Source of the DNA: an uncultured Aquimarina sp.
GTDB taxonomy: Bacteria; Bacteroidota; Bacteroidia; Flavobacteriales; Flavobacteriaceae
Direction of reading: 5' to 3'
Assembly: GCA_947498765.1 (NCBI GenBank)
Contig: CANMLG010000023.1
Span: 1 to 64,000, forward strand
Length of the DNA stretch: 64,000 bases
The notes under the pieces were generated by a model. The model searched no databases and was not told the DNA's origin. It worked only from the letters and a program-made list of their open reading frames with translations. The translations under genes were made by a program, and so were the position numbers. This document shows, piece by piece, positions 5,250 through 61,124 of this stretch. Numbering within the stretch: the first letter of the stretch is position 1; every line of letters begins with the position of its first letter.

Positions 5250-7493
5250 TTAAAAACTCCATGAATCAATATACATACCATAAAAATAATCCATCTGATA
5301 TTTTAACACATATTCATCGTTTACACCTGTATCACTATTAATTTCATAAGCATAAGGTTTAATATTATGTTTTTTAAATTCTAGGAGCAATTTTTTATTA
5401 CGATTACTTTGATCAATAAATCTTCTTGAAATCGCTATGTTTTTAATCCCCATTTTAGCAAAATCTTCAACATCTTCTTTATCGATCCCATTAATTACCG
5501 ATTCTGAAGGCATAACAGATAAAATTTCAGCTTTTAAACCTAATTTTACTGCATTCATATCAAATAACTCCATTATTAATCTATTCTTAAACTTAAATTG
5601 AGATGCAAACTCTACAGGCTCATTAATTTTATCTGTAACTAAAATAGCATCCTTATGAAGAGAAAACCACTCATTAATTCTAGGCATATCTAAAGGTGTA
5701 TACTTTTCATATATTTCACAACTAATAAATTCATCATATAAAGCAGGCAACTCTCCTTTGAATTTAGTTATTTTAGACCAGTTTTTCCAATCATGAGCAG
5801 CAACAAATTTTCCTTCTTTAGTTTTTATAATATCTAATTCAAATAATCTAAATCCTTTTCTGTAATTTAAATCAAGTGCTTCTTTCGAATTTGTATAAAT
5901 TTTTCCATCAATCCCTCCTCCAGCATGTGCTATAAAACGCAAGGTATCTTTCTTGTAATTTTCGTAATCTTTAGATACTTCTTTTTTTTCAAAAGGTTTA
6001 GCATCAATTCTAAGTAAACCATTTGTATTTATTTCCGTTAATCCCAGTAAATTATCTTTTATGTATTGATTTTTATCCCCTTCAATATAATCCGTTAAAA
6101 ACTTTAAGTTGTGCTCTATTTCTGCTCCATCAAGTATAATTTTTGGTAAATCAATTTGATATAGTTTTTCATTATCACTCTTTTTTAGGTTGTTATTCTT
6201 TGAATTACTAATAACATACAATCCTCTACCTCCTGTATTCTCAAACATTGATGGATCTCCCATTTTCAGATGATCTGGAAAAATATATACAACAGTATTT
6301 TCTAGTAGTTTTTTTTCTTTTAAATAAGAAATAAAATCTCCTATCATATAATCTACAGCTGCAACCATAAATTCTAATTCAGAGTTCTTTTTCGAAATAA
6401 TAGATTCCATTCGATCATCATAAATTCCATTAGGAAAATGAGTATCAGTTGTTGAAATAAACATTGCAAATGGTTGATTAGATTTTTTTTGTAAATCAAT
6501 TTCCCTTTTAGCCAATTCAAATAAGTCTTTATCTCTTAAACCATAAAAACTCTCATTCTTCTGTTTCCATACTTTTTTCTTATCGATTATTTTATCAAAC
6601 TTAAATGCGTTTAACATTTGATCTACTCCCGAAAATGATGCATCGCCATTTAAAAAAATGGTATTATAGTTTGCTTTCTTTAATACATGTGATATACTGG
6701 ATATTTCTGTACTATATACCTTATCAAATATAGTATTGGCCTGAACACCAAAAAAAGCTGGAAAACCAGTCAAGCAAGTATATAAAGATCCGCTAGTCCA
6801 ATTACTACCTTCATTTTCTTCTAATTCAGAATAATTCCAACTATTCTTTAGTTTATTTAAATTAGGGGTTAATTCAGAAAATTTTTTAGATAAAAATGAT
6901 TTTTCTAAAGATTCTATAGAAAGAATAACAATATTTTTTCCTGCTTTACTCTCAACCTTATCAGGAGTGGTATAATTAAGAATATTATTTTTACTTAAAA
7001 CACTTTTAAAGCCTTCCCTATAATTAGAAGTATTAAAAACAGTAATTATAGATTTTGTATCATTTACAATACTACTTTTTTGTAAAATAACAGTAAAATT
7101 TACAATTACTATCAGCCATAAAACACTTAATCTTATTGGTCGGTTAATTTTAAATTTACTGTTAATTTTATCCGAAATATTTCCTGAAAAATAAAAAATA
7201 AGGAATAACCCAATAAAAAAAATTAAAATAAAAAAAATGTGTGGAATAAATAACCCTGAAATGCCTGTAACTGCTCCTATATTAAAATGAGTATAAAATT
7301 GATAATCAATAAATGATTGGGTAAAATAAAGAGAAATTAATTGTAACGAAATAAATAAAGCGAACAAAAAAGAAAAAAGAAATCTCACTTTTTTTATTCT
7401 AAATAATGTTACCATTAAAAAAAAAGAACTAATAAACATCAATATGACTATAACATTCTTTTTATCTCCAAATTCATGAATTAATTCTATCAT
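5250..7493 (-). CDS. Membrane LtaS/sulfatase-family phosphotransferase fused to a GDPD domain
   Basis: A 747-residue fusion. The N-terminus has four strong hydrophobic segments (about 12-32, 37-58, 83-103, 121-138), followed by an alkaline-phosphatase-superfamily domain (about 185-475) like LTA synthase or phosphoethanolamine transferases. Its metal and nucleophile pattern is visible: SIES with E194, NWTSG with nucleophile T233, and PDH with D407/H408. The C-terminal domain (about 515-747) is of the glycerophosphodiester phosphodiesterase family: AHAGG (H523), N535, ELD (E552, D554) and AHDW (H567). The usual HR of GDPD is HA here. After the membrane part both domains should face the periplasm. 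Family knowledge suggests one half adds phospho-glycerol or a related group and the other hydrolyses glycerophosphodiesters; a combined role in envelope decoration is inference. The gene is monocistronic, and its base composition is visibly AT-richer than the flanking genes. Confidence 0.8.
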   Translation of the reverse strand: MIELIHEFGDKKNVIVILMFISSFFLMVTLFRIKKVRFLFSFLFALFISLQLISLYFTQSFIDYQFYTHFNIGAVTGISGLFIPHIFFILIFFIGLFLIFYFSGNISDKINSKFKINRPIRLSVLWLIVIVNFTVILQKSSIVNDTKSIITVFNTSNYREGFKSVLSKNNILNYTTPDKVESKAGKNIVILSIESLEKSFLSKKFSELTPNLNKLKNSWNYSELEENEGSNWTSGSLYTCLTGFPAFFGVQANTIFDKVYSTEISSISHVLKKANYNTIFLNGDASFSGVDQMLNAFKFDKIIDKKKVWKQKNESFYGLRDKDLFELAKREIDLQKKSNQPFAMFISTTDTHFPNGIYDDRMESIISKKNSELEFMVAAVDYMIGDFISYLKEKKLLENTVVYIFPDHLKMGDPSMFENTGGRGLYVISNSKNNNLKKSDNEKLYQIDLPKIILDGAEIEHNLKFLTDYIEGDKNQYIKDNLLGLTEINTNGLLRIDAKPFEKKEVSKDYENYKKDTLRFIAHAGGGIDGKIYTNSKEALDLNYRKGFRLFELDIIKTKEGKFVAAHDWKNWSKITKFKGELPALYDEFISCEIYEKYTPLDMPRINEWFSLHKDAILVTDKINEPVEFASQFKFKNRLIMELFDMNAVKLGLKAEILSVMPSESVINGIDKEDVEDFAKMGIKNIAISRRFIDQSNRNKKLLLEFKKHNIKPYAYEINSDTGVNDEYVLKYQMDYFYGMYIDSWSF

Positions 7494-54595: not shown

Positions 54596-54952
54596 TTACC
54601 TCGTCTTAGATCGTTCAATAGTAACCATTTGCACATCACCTCCAATAGGTGGGTTTATTTTTGATACAGCTACTGTAGCTTGGGTAACTAAAATAAGTTC
54701 ATTAAAAATTCTATTTAAAATACGCTCAGCTACATGTTCTAATAATTTAGAACGAATAGCCATTTCTTCTTTTATAATTAAATTTAGGTGTACATAGTCA
54801 ACAGTATCAGCTAACTCATCACTTTGAGCCGATGCATTTAAATTGGCAGTAACCGTTAAATCAACACGGTAATCAGAACCTATTTTTGATTCTTCAACCA
54901 AGCAGCCATGGTTAGTATGTATTTTTATATTGTGAAGTTTTATTATTCCCAT
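54596..54952 (-). CDS. folB: Dihydroneopterin aldolase
   Basis: 118-residue cytosolic enzyme of folate synthesis that converts 7,8-dihydroneopterin to 6-hydroxymethyl-dihydropterin. The start MGIIKLHNIKIHTNHGCLVEES is the family signature, with later DTVDYVHLN and LLEHVAERIL, which carry the catalytic Glu and Tyr/Lys positions. No other folate genes are near. It stands between the tRNA and glnS, facing away from glnS. Confidence 0.95.
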   Translation of the reverse strand: MGIIKLHNIKIHTNHGCLVEESKIGSDYRVDLTVTANLNASAQSDELADTVDYVHLNLIIKEEMAIRSKLLEHVAERILNRIFNELILVTQATVAVSKINPPIGGDVQMVTIERSKTR

Positions 54953-55211
54953 TTTACTATTGGTTATTAATTATTTACCCAAAATTATTACAATTTGTAG
55001 TATTATACGAAATCATTATTAACAAATCGTATTAAATAAGGCTTATGCAAATTACAAAGTTTTGTGATCATTTTTTAAAATATAATTTACTATGCTTTTT
55101 TAGGATATTTTATTGGTGATGAAATTTTATAAATACATTAAATTTTAGAGGCTAAAGTGTTAAAAGGAGCATTTAAATTTTAATAACTTTACGCTTTAAA
55201 TTATACCGAAT

Positions 55212-57239
55212 ATGTCAGAGCATAAATCATTAAATTTTATAGAGCAGATTATTGAAGAGGATTTAAAAAATGGCTATACTCAAGATAAGCTGCGTTTTCG
55301 TTTTCCACCAGAACCTAATGGGTATTTACATATAGGACATACTAAAGCCCTAGGGATTAGTTTTGGAATGGGTGAAAAATATAATGCGCCTGTAAACTTA
55401 CGTTTTGATGATACTAATCCGGCAAAAGAAGAGCAAGAATATGTAGATGCTATTAAAAAAGATGTTAGCTGGATGGGGTATAAATGGGATAAAATATGTT
55501 ATTCTTCTGATTATTTTCAGCAATTATATGATTGGGCAGTTCAATTAATTAAGGATGGAAAAGCTTATGTGGATTCACAATCAAGTGAAGCCATGGCTGA
55601 ACAAAAAGGAACGCCAACTCAGCCAGGAGTTTCCGGACCCTATAGAGATCGTTCTGTTGAAGAAAACTTAGCGCTTTTTGAAGCAATGAAAGCGGGTAAA
55701 TACAATGAAGGTGAACATATTTTAAGGGCTAAGATTGATATGGAATCGCCCAATATGTTAATGCGTGATCCCTTAATGTATCGTATTTTAAAAAAGGAAC
55801 ATCACCGAACAGGAAATGATTGGTGTATTTATCCAATGTACGATTGGACTCATGGCGAAAGTGATTACATTGAAGAGATTACACATTCATTATGTTCATT
55901 AGAATTTAAGCCACATAGAGAGCTTTATAATTGGTTTTTAGCCCAAATAGATACAAAGCATAGATTACCAAAACAACGTGAATTTGCAAGGCTTAATTTG
56001 AATTATACAGTAATGAGTAAGCGTAAATTACTACAGCTTGTTGAACAAAATATAGTATCTGGCTGGGATGATCCTCGTATGCCTACCATTTCGGGTTTGC
56101 GTAGAAGAGGATATACGCCCAAAGCCATCAAAAATTTTGTAGAAACGGTAGGTGTTGCTAAACGCGAAAATGTTATTGAATTATCACTCTTAGAATTTTG
56201 TATTAGAGAGGATTTAAATAAAATAGCTACTCGTGTTATGGGAGTTTTAGATCCTGTAAAATTGGTGATCACTAATTATCCCGAAGACAAAGAAGAAATT
56301 TTGATAGCAGAAAATAATCCAGAAGATGCTAATTCTGGTACGCATGAAATTTCATTTTCAAGAGAATTATATATTGAAAGAGAAGATTTTAAAGAAGCTG
56401 CCAATAGCAAATATTTCCGTTTAAGTTTAGGTAAAGAAGTACGATTAAAAAGTGCTTATATCATTAAAGGAGAATCGGTAGTAAAAGATGCCAAAGGCAA
56501 TATTATCGAAATTCATTGTACTTATGATCCCGATAGTAAATCGGGTAGTGGGAGTGAGGCTTCATTACGAAAAGTGAAAGGGACATTGCATTGGGTTTCT
56601 ATAAAACATGCTATTCCTGCAGAAATACGTGTTTATGATCGTTTATTTTCTGATGAGGCACCAGATGCACATAAAGATAAAAGCTTTATGGAATTTGTAA
56701 ATAAAGATTCATTAAAAGTAGTACATGCTTTTGTCGAACCTTATTTAAAAAATGCTGAATTAGGATCACATTTTCAATTTCAGCGTTTGGGTTATTTTAC
56801 TTTGGACTTAGATACTTCTGCAGAAGCATTAGTATTTAATAAAACTGTAGGTTTAAAGGATAGTTGGGCAAAGCAAAAGCCAAAACCACAACAAGCTCAA
56901 GCTCAAAATTCGCAACAAAATAGAGGAGGACAAGCCAAAAATCCAATTAGTGAAATTCAAAAATTAGGTAAAAAGTATACCAACCTTCCGGTAGAAAAAC
57001 AACTAGTTACCAAGGCTAAAATTAAAGAATTAGCAAAAGATGTAGCTTATGATGAATTTGCTCCATTGTTTGGAACAGCAAAAAAGAAAGTAGGTACTCG
57101 TATTGCAGTACTATTAATTTTAGGTGAATATTTAGCAAGTAATCCAATAACTGACGCCGCTAAACAATTTATTGATGAAACTTTAGAGGATAGTAATGAA
57201 TTATTAGTTGCCGAAGCAAAACAGTTAAAATTAGATTAA
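55212..57239 (+). CDS. glnS: Glutaminyl-tRNA synthetase
   Basis: Charges tRNA-Gln with glutamine. 675 residues. The class I HIGH motif is HIGH at 40-43 (PPEPNGYLHIGHTKAL), and the KMSKS-like VMSKRKL motif follows. The anticodon-binding beta-barrel domains continue to about 560. A C-terminal extension of about 105 residues follows, starting with a Gln/Ala-rich linker and then VTKAKIKELAKDVAYDEFAP. Extensions at this end are known in some bacterial GlnRS, and I could not assign this one to YqeY. Direct glutaminylation implies that this organism does not depend on GatCAB for Gln. Confidence 0.96.
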   Translation: MSEHKSLNFIEQIIEEDLKNGYTQDKLRFRFPPEPNGYLHIGHTKALGISFGMGEKYNAPVNLRFDDTNPAKEEQEYVDAIKKDVSWMGYKWDKICYSSDYFQQLYDWAVQLIKDGKAYVDSQSSEAMAEQKGTPTQPGVSGPYRDRSVEENLALFEAMKAGKYNEGEHILRAKIDMESPNMLMRDPLMYRILKKEHHRTGNDWCIYPMYDWTHGESDYIEEITHSLCSLEFKPHRELYNWFLAQIDTKHRLPKQREFARLNLNYTVMSKRKLLQLVEQNIVSGWDDPRMPTISGLRRRGYTPKAIKNFVETVGVAKRENVIELSLLEFCIREDLNKIATRVMGVLDPVKLVITNYPEDKEEILIAENNPEDANSGTHEISFSRELYIEREDFKEAANSKYFRLSLGKEVRLKSAYIIKGESVVKDAKGNIIEIHCTYDPDSKSGSGSEASLRKVKGTLHWVSIKHAIPAEIRVYDRLFSDEAPDAHKDKSFMEFVNKDSLKVVHAFVEPYLKNAELGSHFQFQRLGYFTLDLDTSAEALVFNKTVGLKDSWAKQKPKPQQAQAQNSQQNRGGQAKNPISEIQKLGKKYTNLPVEKQLVTKAKIKELAKDVAYDEFAPLFGTAKKKVGTRIAVLLILGEYLASNPITDAAKQFIDETLEDSNELLVAEAKQLKLD

Positions 57240-57301
57240 ATCAATCTGCTATTTAAAGTTATATTATTTAGTTTGTAACCAATTTTAAATTCTACAATTC
57301 A

Positions 57302-57736
57302 ATGAATAGCGAACTACTAAACGTTAAATTATTATCACTTGATAATATTGAAGAAATGATTCCTTTAGCATTACAGTTAGGTGATTATAAAGAAGATCAA
57401 ATATACAATTATATCAATGAAATGTTTAATTATGGTAATTATGTATGTTTTGGTCTATTTGTATCTAATGAGCTTATCGGATTAACAAGTGGTTGGACCT
57501 CTACTAGATTTTATTGTGGAAAACAGCTTGAAATTGATAATGTAGTTATCGATGCTAAACACCAATCAAAAGGTTATGGTCGTATTTTTGAGTCTGAAAT
57601 AAAAGCTTGGTGTTTTGAAAGAGATTACGATACCATTGAATTAAATTCATATGTGTTTAATTCACGCTCTCATAAATTTTATTTTAATCAAGATTATAAA
57701 ATAATAGGCTATCATTTTCAAAAGAAAATTAAATAA
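57302..57736 (+). CDS. GNAT-family N-acetyltransferase
   Basis: 144-residue acetyl-CoA-dependent transferase. The core beta4-alpha3 motif VVIDAKHQSKGYGRIFESEI holds the pyrophosphate loop (QSKGYG). The acceptor is not known. It lies 62 nt after glnS and 8 nt before the phosphoethanolamine-transferase-like gene, so it is the first gene of a three-gene run. It may modify an amino sugar or protein, but this is inference. Confidence 0.85.
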   Translation: MNSELLNVKLLSLDNIEEMIPLALQLGDYKEDQIYNYINEMFNYGNYVCFGLFVSNELIGLTSGWTSTRFYCGKQLEIDNVVIDAKHQSKGYGRIFESEIKAWCFERDYDTIELNSYVFNSRSHKFYFNQDYKIIGYHFQKKIK

Positions 57737-57744
57737 TTTATTGA

Positions 57745-59226
57745 ATGAAATTTAAAAAAGAAGTTTTTGAAAATATTAAATTTCATTTAATATTAAATTT
57801 TATTTTCTTAATAAGCATAACATTAGCTTCTTATATTCATATTCCTTTAACAGGTTTTAAAGAAACTTTATTTTATTTTATACACATGTGTATACTGCAA
57901 TCTTGTTTTGCTGGTATATTATATTTTATAAGTTTAAACAAGGTAGTTTTTAAAGTTTTTTTTAGTATAATTTATCTACTATTGGGCATAGTTGCCTTTT
58001 GGGTTTATAGCATAGATATATCTATTTCTCCTTTTTTAATTGATGCTTCATTACAAACAGAAATTGAATTAATGAAGGATTTAATTTCTATTCCTTTAAT
58101 TATTTATATAGTTATATTATTAATTTGTTTGTTTATTATTTTAAAGCTTTATAATAAACTAAAAGTAAAAGCTTTTAAAGTATCATCAATACTAAGTTTA
58201 ATATTAATTTTATTCATTTTTATAGGAGAAAAAATAAGATATCAAACATTTCAATTTAAATTACCATATCAGTTTTTTTGTAGTGTTTATGGCTATTTTA
58301 ATAAGTATTCATTAGAGTTAGAGGATATTAGTGATTTAAGTTTTTCGTCAGATTTAAAGAATGATCTTCAAGTAACTTTTGTTTTAGGAGAAACTGTTCG
58401 CGCAGATCATTTAGGTATTAATGGGTATAAGCGAAATACAACGCCTAATCTTTCTAAAATAGATAAAAACTTTTTCAGTTTTAAAAATACTTATACTAAT
58501 AAAGTATACACTTCAGGGAGTATCCCTCAAATTTTATCAAATCAAAGCATTTATGATACCACTAATTATAAAATAAGAAGTGTATATGACGTTTTAAAAA
58601 AATCAGATATAAACTGTACTTGGATAGGAAATCAGTTCTTAGAATGGGGTTATAAATCAATAGCAACTAGTAATAATGAGGTTATTTTGATAGATAAATC
58701 TAAATCATATGATAGTTACCATAAATCTAAAGATGAAGAGTTACTTCCTTATTTAAAAAAGGAGTTAGAAAAAAAGAGAAAAAAAAATATGACAACTCTA
58801 CATATGATAGGCAGTCATTGGTGGTATGATAATAGGTATGATGAGCGGCATAGAAAGTATAAGCCTGTAATAGATTCTAAATACATGCCTTCATTAACAA
58901 GTGAACAAATTATTAATTCATATGATAATACTATTTTATATTTTGATTATTTTTTAAATGAAGTTATTAATTATCATAAAAATCTAGATAGGCCTTCAAT
59001 TGTTATTTATATATCTGATCATGGAGAATCTTTAGGAGAAAACGGAAAATGGTTGCATGGTCACGAATCTAAATATGTAGCTAATCCAGCGTTTATAATT
59101 TGGTATTCTGAAAAATTTAAAAAATTATATCCTAATCAAGTAACTTTCATAAATCAAATGGAATTAAACGATCTAACCACAGATATTATCTACAATTTAA
59201 TTTTAAATTTATTTAAAATAAAATGA
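57745..59226 (+). CDS. Phosphoethanolamine-transferase-like (EptA/sulfatase family) membrane enzyme
   Basis: 493 residues: five membrane helices (about 13-33, 43-62, 68-90, 115-135, 146-161), then a periplasmic alkaline-phosphatase-fold domain. It has the EptA pattern VLGETVRADHLGINGYKRNT (E216 metal ligand), nucleophile T256 in VYTSGS, and YISDHGESLGENGKWLHG with D425, H426 and H438 as metal ligands. EptA enzymes transfer phosphoethanolamine from PE to lipid A or glycans. The true donor and acceptor are not readable here. It overlaps the next gene by 4 nt (ATGA). The sequence is AT-rich compared with glnS. Confidence 0.85.
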   Translation: MKFKKEVFENIKFHLILNFIFLISITLASYIHIPLTGFKETLFYFIHMCILQSCFAGILYFISLNKVVFKVFFSIIYLLLGIVAFWVYSIDISISPFLIDASLQTEIELMKDLISIPLIIYIVILLICLFIILKLYNKLKVKAFKVSSILSLILILFIFIGEKIRYQTFQFKLPYQFFCSVYGYFNKYSLELEDISDLSFSSDLKNDLQVTFVLGETVRADHLGINGYKRNTTPNLSKIDKNFFSFKNTYTNKVYTSGSIPQILSNQSIYDTTNYKIRSVYDVLKKSDINCTWIGNQFLEWGYKSIATSNNEVILIDKSKSYDSYHKSKDEELLPYLKKELEKKRKKNMTTLHMIGSHWWYDNRYDERHRKYKPVIDSKYMPSLTSEQIINSYDNTILYFDYFLNEVINYHKNLDRPSIVIYISDHGESLGENGKWLHGHESKYVANPAFIIWYSEKFKKLYPNQVTFINQMELNDLTTDIIYNLILNLFKIK

Positions 59227-59975
59227 TTAATTTAATTAAAAAGAACCTATTGTTCAAGTTATTAATTTTATCAATTTTTGTTTTTGGTATTTATTATTAT
59301 TTCCCCTACCGAGTTGAATTTTTAGGACATTATGATAAAGTATTAGCGCATAGATGTAATAGTGTAGATCGTTTAAACGCTGCTTTAAATTATTATAAAG
59401 GTGTAGAATTAGATCTTGTTTATTATCCCAAAACTAATGTTTTGGATGTAAATCATCCTCCATCTGAATCTACTAATTTAAATTTTACAACTTATATGAA
59501 TGGGTTGATTTCTAAAGAACAACCTTTTATTTGGTTAGATATTAAAAACTTAAATGCAGATAATGCTTCTTTAATTTTTGAAAAAATAACAGCTATTTTA
59601 TCAGCTAAAAATTATAAACTTAATAAAGTATTAATTGAAACTAGACATCCCGAGGCATTGCCAATTTTTACCGAGGCTGGATTTAAAACTTGTTATTATT
59701 TGCCCAAAAGGCTTTATTTAAAATCTCCGAATGAACTTAAAAAATATATCAGTAGAATAACTAAAGTGCTAAAAAAGCAACCTAGGATTGGAATATCTAC
59801 AGATTTTCAAGATTATGATATAATGAACGAATATTTTCCAGAAAGAGAAAAATATACATGGGTCTTAGTTTTTCCAATCAATAAACATTTACTAATAACA
59901 AAAAGAATATTAAATGATCCTATGGTTAAAATTGTTTTGACTAAATATAATTCTTTATTACATCCAAGAATTTGA
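59223..59975 (+). CDS. Membrane-anchored GDPD-like phosphodiesterase
   Basis: 250 residues: an N-terminal membrane anchor (about 10-26) followed by a GDPD-like domain. The catalytic pattern is AHRCN (H43, R44), VELDL (E62, D64), VNHPP (H78) and a late LDIKN (D106, K108), the same arrangement as glycerophosphodiester phosphodiesterases. Part of the barrel seems short (250 residues in total), so activity is not certain. It overlaps the upstream transferase by 4 nt, so the two are translated together and share a side of the membrane. Confidence 0.75.
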   Translation: MINLIKKNLLFKLLILSIFVFGIYYYFPYRVEFLGHYDKVLAHRCNSVDRLNAALNYYKGVELDLVYYPKTNVLDVNHPPSESTNLNFTTYMNGLISKEQPFIWLDIKNLNADNASLIFEKITAILSAKNYKLNKVLIETRHPEALPIFTEAGFKTCYYLPKRLYLKSPNELKKYISRITKVLKKQPRIGISTDFQDYDIMNEYFPEREKYTWVLVFPINKHLLITKRILNDPMVKIVLTKYNSLLHPRI

Positions 59976-59982
59976 AAATAGC

Positions 59983-60018
59983 TATCACCTATTTTAAATA
60001 AAATTTGATAGTTTTTTC
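59983..60018 (+). terminator. Hairpin after the GDPD-like gene
   Basis: CTATCA (59985 onward) pairs with TGATAG near 60009, extended inside by the A/T arms ATTTTA/TAAAAT, followed by TTTTTTC. It lies 8-10 nt beyond the stop codon and fits an intrinsic terminator for the GNAT operon. Confidence 0.5.
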
Positions 60019-60095
60019 TTATCAAATTTAACTTTTATAAATCCATTATATTTAATGATTTTATAAAAGTGAATAAAATATATTATTATAAAATG

Positions 60096-60128
60096 AAACC
60101 CGCTTAAATCAATGTTTAAACGGGTTTT
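60096..60128. terminator. Terminator between the GDPD operon and the SPFH gene
   Basis: AAACCCGCTTAAA pairs with TTTAAACGGGTTT (one mismatch) around TCAATG, followed by TTTTTT on the plus strand. On the minus strand it lies 22 nt after the SPFH stop, with a weaker T tail. Confidence 0.75.
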
Positions 60129-60149
60129 TTGATTTTTATTGATTGAGTA

Positions 60150-61124
60150 TTAAATTTCAGTATCAGGTTTGCGTTTCGAACTTGATTTTTTGTTAGTAAT
60201 TCCTTTTGCCGCATTTTGTTCCTTCATAGCTTCTCCAATTTGATTGGAAGCCGTAAATGAAGCAATCATATTATTTAACATATCGCTACCAGCCTGTGGT
60301 GAGTTGGGTAATAAAATTAAATTACTTCCAGTATGTTCACCAATAGATTGTAACGTATCATAGTGTTGAGTAACTACAATTAGGGCAGAGGCTTCCTGGC
60401 TATTAATACCTACATTGTTTAATACATCTACTGATTCTTCTAATCCACGTGCAATTTCTCTACGTTGATCGGCTATACCTTGTCCTTGTAAACGCTTACT
60501 CTCAGCTTCAGCCTTAGCCTTTTCCACAATTAAAATACGTTGTGCGTCACCTTCATATTGTGCTGCTATTTTTTCGCGTTCTGAAGCATTTATTCGGTTC
60601 ATAGCTTCTTTTACTTGTTCATCTGGATCAATATCAGTAACTAAGGTTTTAATAATGTCATAACCATAATCCATCATAGCATCATTAAGTTCACCTTTAA
60701 CAGCAATGGCAATATCGTCCTTACGTTCAAACACATCATCTAATTTCATTTTTGGAACTTCGGCACGAACCACATCAAAAACATAGGATGTGATTTGATC
60801 GTGTGGGTAATCTAGTTTATAAAAAGCCTCATATACTTTTTCTTTAATAACCTTAAATTGTACAGATACTTTAAGTTTTACAAAAACATCATCTTTAGTT
60901 TTAGTTTCAACAATTACATCCAATTGCTGAATTTTTAAACTTAAACGACCAGAAATTTTATCAATTAAAGGGATCTTAAAATGCAGACCAGATTGTCGAA
61001 TGCTATGGAATTTTCCAAAGCGTTCAATAATAGCAGCGGTTTGTTGTTTCACGGTAAACACACCTGCAGCAATAAGTACTACAAGTAAAAAAATAACAAT
61101 GGGTAAAAATGGAATGCCAAACAT
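60150..61124 (-). CDS. SPFH/Band 7 domain protein
   Basis: 324 residues. A hydrophobic N-terminus (about 5-23) anchors it in the membrane, followed by the band-7 domain (QQTAAIIERFGKFHSIRQSG, then QQLDVIVETKTKDDVFVKLK) and a long coiled coil with the stomatin-type stretch ASEREKIAAQYEGDAQRILI. The C-terminus is Lys/Ser-rich. Such proteins form oligomers in membrane domains and can control membrane proteases such as FtsH. A terminator separates it from the small gene upstream, so it is probably its own transcript. Confidence 0.92.
   Translation of the reverse strand: MFGIPFLPIVIFLLVVLIAAGVFTVKQQTAAIIERFGKFHSIRQSGLHFKIPLIDKISGRLSLKIQQLDVIVETKTKDDVFVKLKVSVQFKVIKEKVYEAFYKLDYPHDQITSYVFDVVRAEVPKMKLDDVFERKDDIAIAVKGELNDAMMDYGYDIIKTLVTDIDPDEQVKEAMNRINASEREKIAAQYEGDAQRILIVEKAKAEAESKRLQGQGIADQRREIARGLEESVDVLNNVGINSQEASALIVVTQHYDTLQSIGEHTGSNLILLPNSPQAGSDMLNNMIASFTASNQIGEAMKEQNAAKGITNKKSSSKRKPDTEI

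Follow-up and report, generated by a model that had tools for sequence, protein, structure and literature searches.

Phosphoethanolamine on lipid A sets surface charge, tolerance to peptide antibiotics and visibility to the immune system, and its addition is usually regarded as one-way. In Capnocytophaga canimorsus, a Flavobacteriaceae species, lpxE and eptA overlap by 20 bp (PMC4730577). On eukaryotic GPI anchors, ethanolamine phosphate is added to a glycan mannose by PIGG and removed by PGAP5 (PMC8222316). The active site of Bacillus subtilis GlpQ comprises His-43, Arg-44, Glu-70, Asp-72, His-85 and Glu-152, its Gln-188 binds glycerol, and GlpQ-type catalysis has been proposed to use the C2 hydroxyl of glycerol (PMC7086022). 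FAM151 belongs to the PLC-like superfamily and has no assigned substrate (PMC6965129), and the gene table of Shewanella vesiculosa HM13 has HM3344 (OpgE) adjoining HM3345 (GDPD), with no function given there for the two (PMC6971210). Here we analyse two overlapping genes in 64,000 nucleotides of an uncultured Aquimarina sp. (assembly GCA_947498765.1, contig CANMLG010000023.1, positions 1 to 64,000; hereafter the window), one for an EptA-like membrane phosphoethanolamine transferase (T) and the other for a predicted membrane-anchored, GDPD-fold phosphodiesterase (M).

Results

The first-pass annotation of the window had taken the contact between T and M, together with a fusion elsewhere in the window, as a sign that the two activities work together, and the pairing is not peculiar to this genome. 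A second T-M pair lies on its contig C19, where a 539-aa transferase overlaps a 248-aa M by 14 nt. The M of this pair and that of the window share 46% identity in the matched stretch. Near the second pair (L010, 418-1129) are frames of 104 and 147 aa that by eye resemble transposases and seem to be interrupted. Among 149 genomes of the family, M matched in eight and the match was real in seven, and all eight M genes there follow and overlap a transferase; the match in G138, covering 111 residues at 29% within a frame of 615 aa, was dropped as a chance one. In the phylum, M matched in only 3 of 395 genomes, the window genome included, so the module is uncommon.

For the main survey we took the best 80 of 117 confirmed relatives of M, a set in which near copies (five Aquimarina, some Ferruginibacter) and repeated genome records make the counts non-independent. 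A transferase-type gene is adjacent to M in 58 loci, fused to it in four and missing in 18, so that 62 of 80 are adjacent or fused. The adjacent genes are CptA/EptA-like transferases (46) or large sulfatase-domain membrane proteins (12), and the fusions come from Bacteroidia (L075), Chitinophagales (L078), Oligoflexales (L081) and Shewanella (L092). In two of these 18 (L069 and L090) the contig ends at M and the upstream gene is out of view. Cultured marine flavobacteria with the pair include Marinirhabdus gelatinilytica DSM 101478 and Aequorivita sinensis (L031 and L032). The transferase stands directly upstream of M in 54 of 73 loci and directly downstream in 4 of 72, against 4 of 481 positions two to five genes away; these counts omit L084, in which a longer overlapping frame masked M and no transferase occurs anywhere in the locus, and do not place the four fusions. 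Fisher's test for 54/73 versus 4/481 gives p ~1e-53, which is not an exact probability given that the genomes are related.

Of the 44 loci with a co-directional T immediately 5' of M, 36 have overlapping frames. Four arrangements were found: T then M, M then T, divergent genes, and a single fused protein, in which M sits after the C-terminal catalytic domain of T. The Shewanella and plasmid samples, both drawn through M only, agree with the survey. Six M matches were found in five of 97 Shewanella genomes, three of them fused, two adjacent and one alone (the fusion in G536 was already known before sampling). Of 72,556 plasmid records four carry M, and T stands beside M in both of the examined ones; the remaining two, with the same match values, come from Vibrio. 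On the Vibrio replicon T and M overlap by 22 nt. On a 9.6-kb Acinetobacter baumannii plasmid T is annotated as a phosphoethanolamine transferase and M as hypothetical. This pair (L151 2243-4525; NZ_CP053221.1) is a distant one, with an IS5 transposase directly downstream, and no second record with near-identical DNA was found among the plasmid records. In all, the module was seen in loci of Bacteroidota, Pseudomonadota, Thermodesulfobacteriota and Bdellovibrionota.

The transferase was placed by profile and structure-based comparison. T matches the sulfatase/alkaline phosphatase catalytic domain PF00884 with 149.5 bits (cut-off 25), while the N-terminal membrane domain EptA_B_N (PF08019) reaches 17.7 bits, under its cut-off of 22.3. 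Its best NCBIfam model, lipid A phosphoethanolamine transferase NF028537 (P_eth_NH2_trans), gives 200.1 bits, under the curated cut-off of 500, and for this reason we file T as EptA-like and not as EptA. T aligns with the catalytic domains of solved EptA and MCR structures, including entry 5fgn, the lipooligosaccharide phosphoethanolamine transferase A (EptA) of Neisseria meningitidis (3.9e-34). E216, T256, D425 and H426 of T fall on E240, T280, D452 and H453 of 5fgn, where the threonine is the nucleophile and the Glu, Asp and His residues are metal ligands. T probably attaches phosphoethanolamine to the cell surface.

None of the searched libraries provides a curated family name for M by itself: no match was found in Pfam, NCBIfam, PHROG or PDB sequences, PF03009 gave nothing at E 0.1, and a profile search of PDB sequences returned a single chance match (E 0.89). 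We therefore turned to structure prediction. AlphaFold2, run on a 65-row alignment, returned a model with a mean pLDDT of 95.9 and a pTM of 0.91, in which a TIM barrel follows the N-terminal helix. In Foldseek the first match and most of the top 20 are GDPDs, and in VIA-align the model superposes on the GDPD 3ch0 with Z 16.4 (root-mean-square deviation 3.1 A over 194 residues) and on 2o55 with the same Z. Spider and bacterial phospholipases D score Z ~12-14 and other barrels up to 12.5. Values of Z 15-16 were also obtained with a multidomain beta-glucanase (7wwc, 7ww4) and phage spike domains (9f5m, 9eul), for which the matched domains are unchecked. On this predicted structure we are confident that M folds as a TIM barrel of the GDPD-like kind, with GDPDs as its closest structural neighbours.

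The candidate catalytic residues of M are H43, R44, E62, D64, H78, D106 and K108. All but the lysine match the GlpQ set, in the order of the motifs and not by a residue-by-residue structural alignment. The residue E139 of strand beta-4, at least 90% conserved, sits by strand order only where GlpQ has Gln-188. None of the first eight family members lists PF03009 at E 1, and the fused relative L075 has a weak PF03009 match over its M part (14 bits, cut-off 23.6). The Menorin/FAM151 model PF10223, scanned on nine M relatives, is above its cut-off of 25 in L016 (30.4 bits) and L061 (26.8), below it in L010, L012, L013, L015 and L049, and without a match in L011 and L014, and the window's M has none either; the matches cover only the first ~80-100 of 242 model positions. 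A genome scan with PF10223 found 0 of 149 above the cut-off, an insensitive result as G042, the genome of L016, was also missed. Given the two relatives above the Menorin cut-off and the sub-cut-off GDPD match of L075, the M family would lie, by profile scores, between GDPD and Menorin/FAM151.

M is linked to transferases of several kinds. Some are CptA-like (L011 has 348 bits to NF007933, cut-off 404), others EptA-like (window, L030, L034 and L037, the window's T being 39-47% identical to the other three and ~23-31% to the rest), and a third kind comprises large sulfatase-domain neighbours of ~640-820 aa that we label LtaS/YejM-like. The last were called by PF00884 in 8 of 10 scanned proteins and elsewhere by a profile built from those, which also picks two ordinary sulfatases of the window genome (L001, L005); the large protein of L083 has weak NCBIfam matches only. 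A fully supported deep branch splits CptA-like from EptA-like transferases in the transferase tree, while the M tree places the M proteins linked to EptA-like T within the set linked to CptA-like T (28-row fork, support 94; inner forks weaker). These trees are quick ones (SH-aLRT only), midpoint-rooted and with long branches flagged; the transferase tree leaves out four partial or poorly matching rows (L081, L023, L044, L060), and a larger version also six duplicates (L011-L016). Gene order differs within the EptA-like type as well, being T-M in the window, M-T in L030 (also beside glnS) and divergent in L034 and L037. We infer at least one exchange of the transferase partner, with M retained, although the EptA-linked M may still form a single clade.

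M is usually accompanied by T, and T often occurs without M. In the 149 family genomes T matched 44 times in 40 genomes, 8 times with M found beside it and 36 times without, a count from a single-protein search in which 23 of the unpaired loci were also read with the M profile (0 of 23 had M in the flanks), so that a divergent M beside the other 13 might be missed. Twenty of the 23 form a supported clade of their own on the CptA-like side of the tree. Two of these (L131 and L141, checked by profile) lie beside polysaccharide flippase or glycosyltransferase genes, and by eye the others look similar, which points to surface glycans as the acceptors of CptA-like T. Acyltransferase-3 genes adjoin T in L128. 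In L086 and L096 (Bacteroidales/Bacteroidota), acyltransferase-3 (L086) or MBOAT (L096) genes occur close to M and large sulfatase-domain proteins, a hint that one glycan may receive both phospho- and acyl-groups.

Five Aquimarina genomes have an M with no adjacent T, beside a DNA-polymerase-IV-like gene (named by eye), and all five have an EptA-like T elsewhere. In four this unlinked T was confirmed against the window's T and lies between glnS and an SPFH/Band-7 gene, one of the T genes being broken; in the fifth it was judged by score and length. The Aquimarina genome in which L021 is an unpaired M carries another, divergent M whose frame overlaps that of a transferase of the CptA-like side (L154 756-1589).

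The window locus is given in Table 1. The positions of the GNAT, T and M genes in the first-pass annotation, its 8-nt spacing between GNAT and T and its ATGA overlap are correct to the base. The tight run it described does stand in the window, whereas the GNAT as a part of it is unconserved: as a third component it was rejected, the sole match at E 1e-3 among L001-L150 being its own copy in L006. GNATs of other kinds occur near the fused genes in L092 and L161 (by eye).

Table 1. Coordinates of the T-M locus and of a separate fusion gene in the window.
Feature	Position	Strand	Remarks
GNAT gene	57302-57736	+	144 aa; PF00583 4.6e-10
T, EptA-like ("type B") membrane phosphoethanolamine transferase, alkaline phosphatase superfamily	57745-59226	+	493 aa; PF00884 1.7e-43
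M, predicted membrane-anchored GDPD-fold (Menorin-like) phosphodiesterase	59223-59975	+	250 aa; helix 2-26, barrel ~34-245
ATGA overlap, T stop/M start	59223-59226	+	4 nt
LtaS/OpgB-like transferase fused to PF03009-like GDPD domain	5250-7493	-	motifs HAGG...ELD...HD

The gene order around the locus is folB (on the opposite strand), glnS, GNAT-T-M and then an SPFH/Band-7 gene, beyond which lies a glutamyl-tRNA-synthetase-like gene on the other strand (named by eye). A consensus promoter scan gave 31 matches against a shuffle mean of 27.2, i.e. not above the shuffles. Four terminator-like sites were seen where 0.5 were expected, two of them at 60096-60186, just 3' of M. The interval between glnS and the SPFH gene is a variable slot (window 54596-61124; L030, L149, L150, L155, L156, L157 and L160; the SPFH side is outside the view in L030 and L149). 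It holds an EptA-like transferase alone, or with an acyltransferase-3 gene (L149 has one in a comparable position), or with M before it, or with a GNAT before and M after.

The fusion gene at 5.25-7.49 kb had been counted by the first-pass annotation as another linkage of the same two kinds of activity. In its transferase half we found matches to the large-sulfatase profile (2.6e-11) and to phosphoglycerol transferase models; its GDPD half matches PF03009 weakly, and the M profile finds no match there. The fusion is kept at 48-55% identity in five further family genomes, and longer variants, near 1000 aa, occur in two more (L108, L109). The same GDPD subfamily is also found without a transferase half, in frames of ~280-515 aa (L110-L113). 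The two loci do not tend to occur together: of the 149 family genomes seven have M and eight the fusion, with only the window genome common to both, in a sample so small that a weak link is possible. By its sequence relations the fusion is best read as an independent case of a similar transferase-GDPD coupling, involving a different GDPD subfamily.

Discussion

The travelling together of T and M, sometimes fused, in distant bacteria suggests a "writer" with its own "editor", and of the ideas in the first-pass annotation that of a writer plus an eraser remains the best. We propose that T and M form a conserved two-enzyme module in which M hydrolyses the phosphodiester that T makes on lipid A or an envelope glycan, a proposal to which we give an even chance. 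Both enzymes would work on the periplasmic side of the inner membrane. There, T would move phosphoethanolamine (or a similar headgroup phosphate), via a phospho-threonine intermediate, from a membrane lipid to lipid A, the lipopolysaccharide core or another envelope glycan. M, fused to T or co-translated with it and tethered alongside by a single N-terminal helix, would act as a metal-dependent phosphodiesterase of the GDPD fold, with a seemingly intact hydrolase site, and cut the bond made by T. The cut would either take off the entire substituent (editing, turnover) or release ethanolamine and leave the phosphate. The C-terminal catalytic domain of EptA is periplasmic and, since in the fusions M follows this domain of T, M is expected to be periplasmic too. 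We infer this topology, the activity of both enzymes and the action of M on the product of T from the relations described above. The asymmetry in which M is mostly with T and T is often without M is the pattern expected of an enzyme that acts on the product of T, and the EptA-like T found elsewhere in all five Aquimarina genomes with an unpaired M fits it too. As M also serves several kinds of transferase, its likeliest substrate would be what these have in common, a phospho-linked headgroup placed on the acceptor.

Several points weigh against this proposal. The survey is mostly of Flavobacteriaceae, and several of its loci from outside Bacteroidota are contigs of metagenome-assembled genomes. 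Phosphoethanolamine has no glycerol C2 hydroxyl, so M would need a neighbouring sugar hydroxyl or another mechanism. Probing 17 genomes in which M has no adjacent T revealed no CptA/EptA-like T anywhere in 10 of them (large sulfatase proteins were not sought). In the 65-row alignment (the eight first-found members, L100 and 56 of the 80 survey loci) E62, D64, D106 and K108 are present in all 65 rows, H78 in 63, H43 in 60 and R44 in 52, the invariance of the first four being partly selection as the survey search patterns held the E62/D64 and D106/K108 motifs. H78 is replaced by Y or R in L059 and L070, H43 by K or Q in L071, L074, L080 and L100, and L078 has a gap at H43; with these His and Arg losses, some M members may be inactive. 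The first-pass annotation had named loss of the catalytic residues in close homologues as a weak point, and here the outcome favours an active M: the catalytic histidines and acids are invariant in 8 of 8 first members, found without patterns, and the Acinetobacter copy, found independently of the motifs, keeps the equivalents of E62, D64, D106, K108, H78, H43 and R44.

The four loci with a replaced H43 make up all the aligned members of a Chitinophagaceae type in which M is divergent to a large sulfatase protein; five further loci with such an M beside a large sulfatase protein are outside the alignment. The M of these four is possibly inactive or changed in mechanism.

Among the other readings, the strongest is a two-step phosphorylation, which we consider unlikely though worth weighing. 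M would then be a maturation enzyme that always removes the alcohol from the phosphoethanolamine or phosphoglycerol added by T, leaving a phosphate monoester on the glycan. The T/M asymmetry fits this reading too, as does the service of one M family to several kinds of transferase, as if M recognised a phosphodiester near a sugar, and E139 in the place of Gln-188 may mean that glycerol recognition is replaced; however, the same end could be reached more simply by a plain phosphatase or by an enzyme like LpxT, and the E139 mapping is by strand order.

Somewhat less probable is that M acts on the lipid side, on the donor or by-product lipids of T (lysophosphatidylethanolamine, glycerophosphoethanolamine, or phosphatidylethanolamine as a phospholipase D), in line with the donor recycling via glycerophosphoethanolamine that the first-pass annotation had put forward. 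The GDPD fold does include lysophospholipase D and glycerophosphodiesterases (fold neighbours 8ghh and 7ymq), and other phosphoethanolamine transferase genes adjoin genes of lipid metabolism (mcr-1/hpap2, mcr-3/dgkA; PMC7559476). Yet recycling fits poorly with the by-product that EptA and MCR leave, diacylglycerol, which has no phosphodiester (PMC7559476), and most T should be accompanied by an enzyme of recycling, while M was found beside only 8 of the 44 T matches.

Improbable to a further degree is a non-catalytic M, a stabiliser, acceptor-binding subunit or regulator of T with a retained GDPD barrel. Tight fusion and overlap with T are what such a partner would show, and the Chitinophagaceae-type rows have lost the first catalytic histidine, but nearly all 65 rows, and the Acinetobacter copy as well, retain the metal ligands, the lysine and the histidines. 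A coincidental neighbourhood of two unrelated envelope genes, for which one could cite the general clustering of envelope genes and the low GC of 0.243 at 58-60 kb (the lowest 2-kb bin in the window), as in recently acquired DNA, is refuted by the survey, with its counts by position, its fusions and a proximity kept while gene order changed, and the two canonical GDPD genes of this genome do not adjoin sulfatase genes.

If the writer-editor proposal is true, a phosphodiesterase wired to the transferase would make the decoration editable and would be a missing half of the system. The linkage to T suggests a candidate substrate for the M family of orphan enzymes, possible animal relatives of which have no assigned substrate. 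A bolder version, which we hold only tentatively, is that M founds a bacterial family of envelope phosphoethanolamine erasers or trimmers, each serving the phospho-transferase linked to it. Phosphate decoration of lipid A and surface glycans would thus be reversible in these bacteria, a counterpart of the editing by PIGG and PGAP5, and M would hint that animal Menorin/FAM151, too, acts on a phosphodiester of a glycan or glycolipid.

The first-pass annotation knew of no such paired system. As to function this stands, since in the portions of the open-licence full-text literature available to us we found no account of what a T-M pair does; as to adjacency it does not, as OpgE-GDPD in S. vesiculosa HM13 is printed there, the sole case in those portions (PMC6971210). 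None of the words phosphodiesterase, neighborhood, synteny, Bacteroid and fused occurs in the text of an mcr survey (PMC10285318).

PGAP5 is a metallophosphoesterase, not a GDPD, and its system is eukaryotic where T-M is bacterial; the likeness, by analogy only, is that a membrane ethanolamine-phosphate transferase is matched by a second enzyme that removes the group. With GDPD/GlpQ (PF03009), M shares the fold and the set of active-site residues, but it has no PF03009 match, its beta-4 Gln is apparently Glu, it is membrane-anchored and it is tied to a transferase. Menorin/FAM151 (PF10223) is the best Pfam match of the M family, which differs in being bacterial, membrane-anchored and transferase-linked. 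The S. vesiculosa genes HM3344 and HM3345 are, like T and M, adjoining genes for a phosphoethanolamine transferase and an inner-membrane GDPD-like protein, HM3345 being likened to M by its table entry and not by sequence, so that it is a putative member of the M family (PMC6971210). Finally, the accessory genes of EptA, MCR and CptA (lpxE-eptA, mcr-1-hpap2, mcr-3-dgkA) resemble T-M in that a transferase is closely linked to a second membrane enzyme (PMC4730577, PMC7559476). In T-M, however, this second enzyme is a predicted GDPD-fold phosphodiesterase in place of a phosphatase or kinase, and in some species it is fused to the transferase itself.

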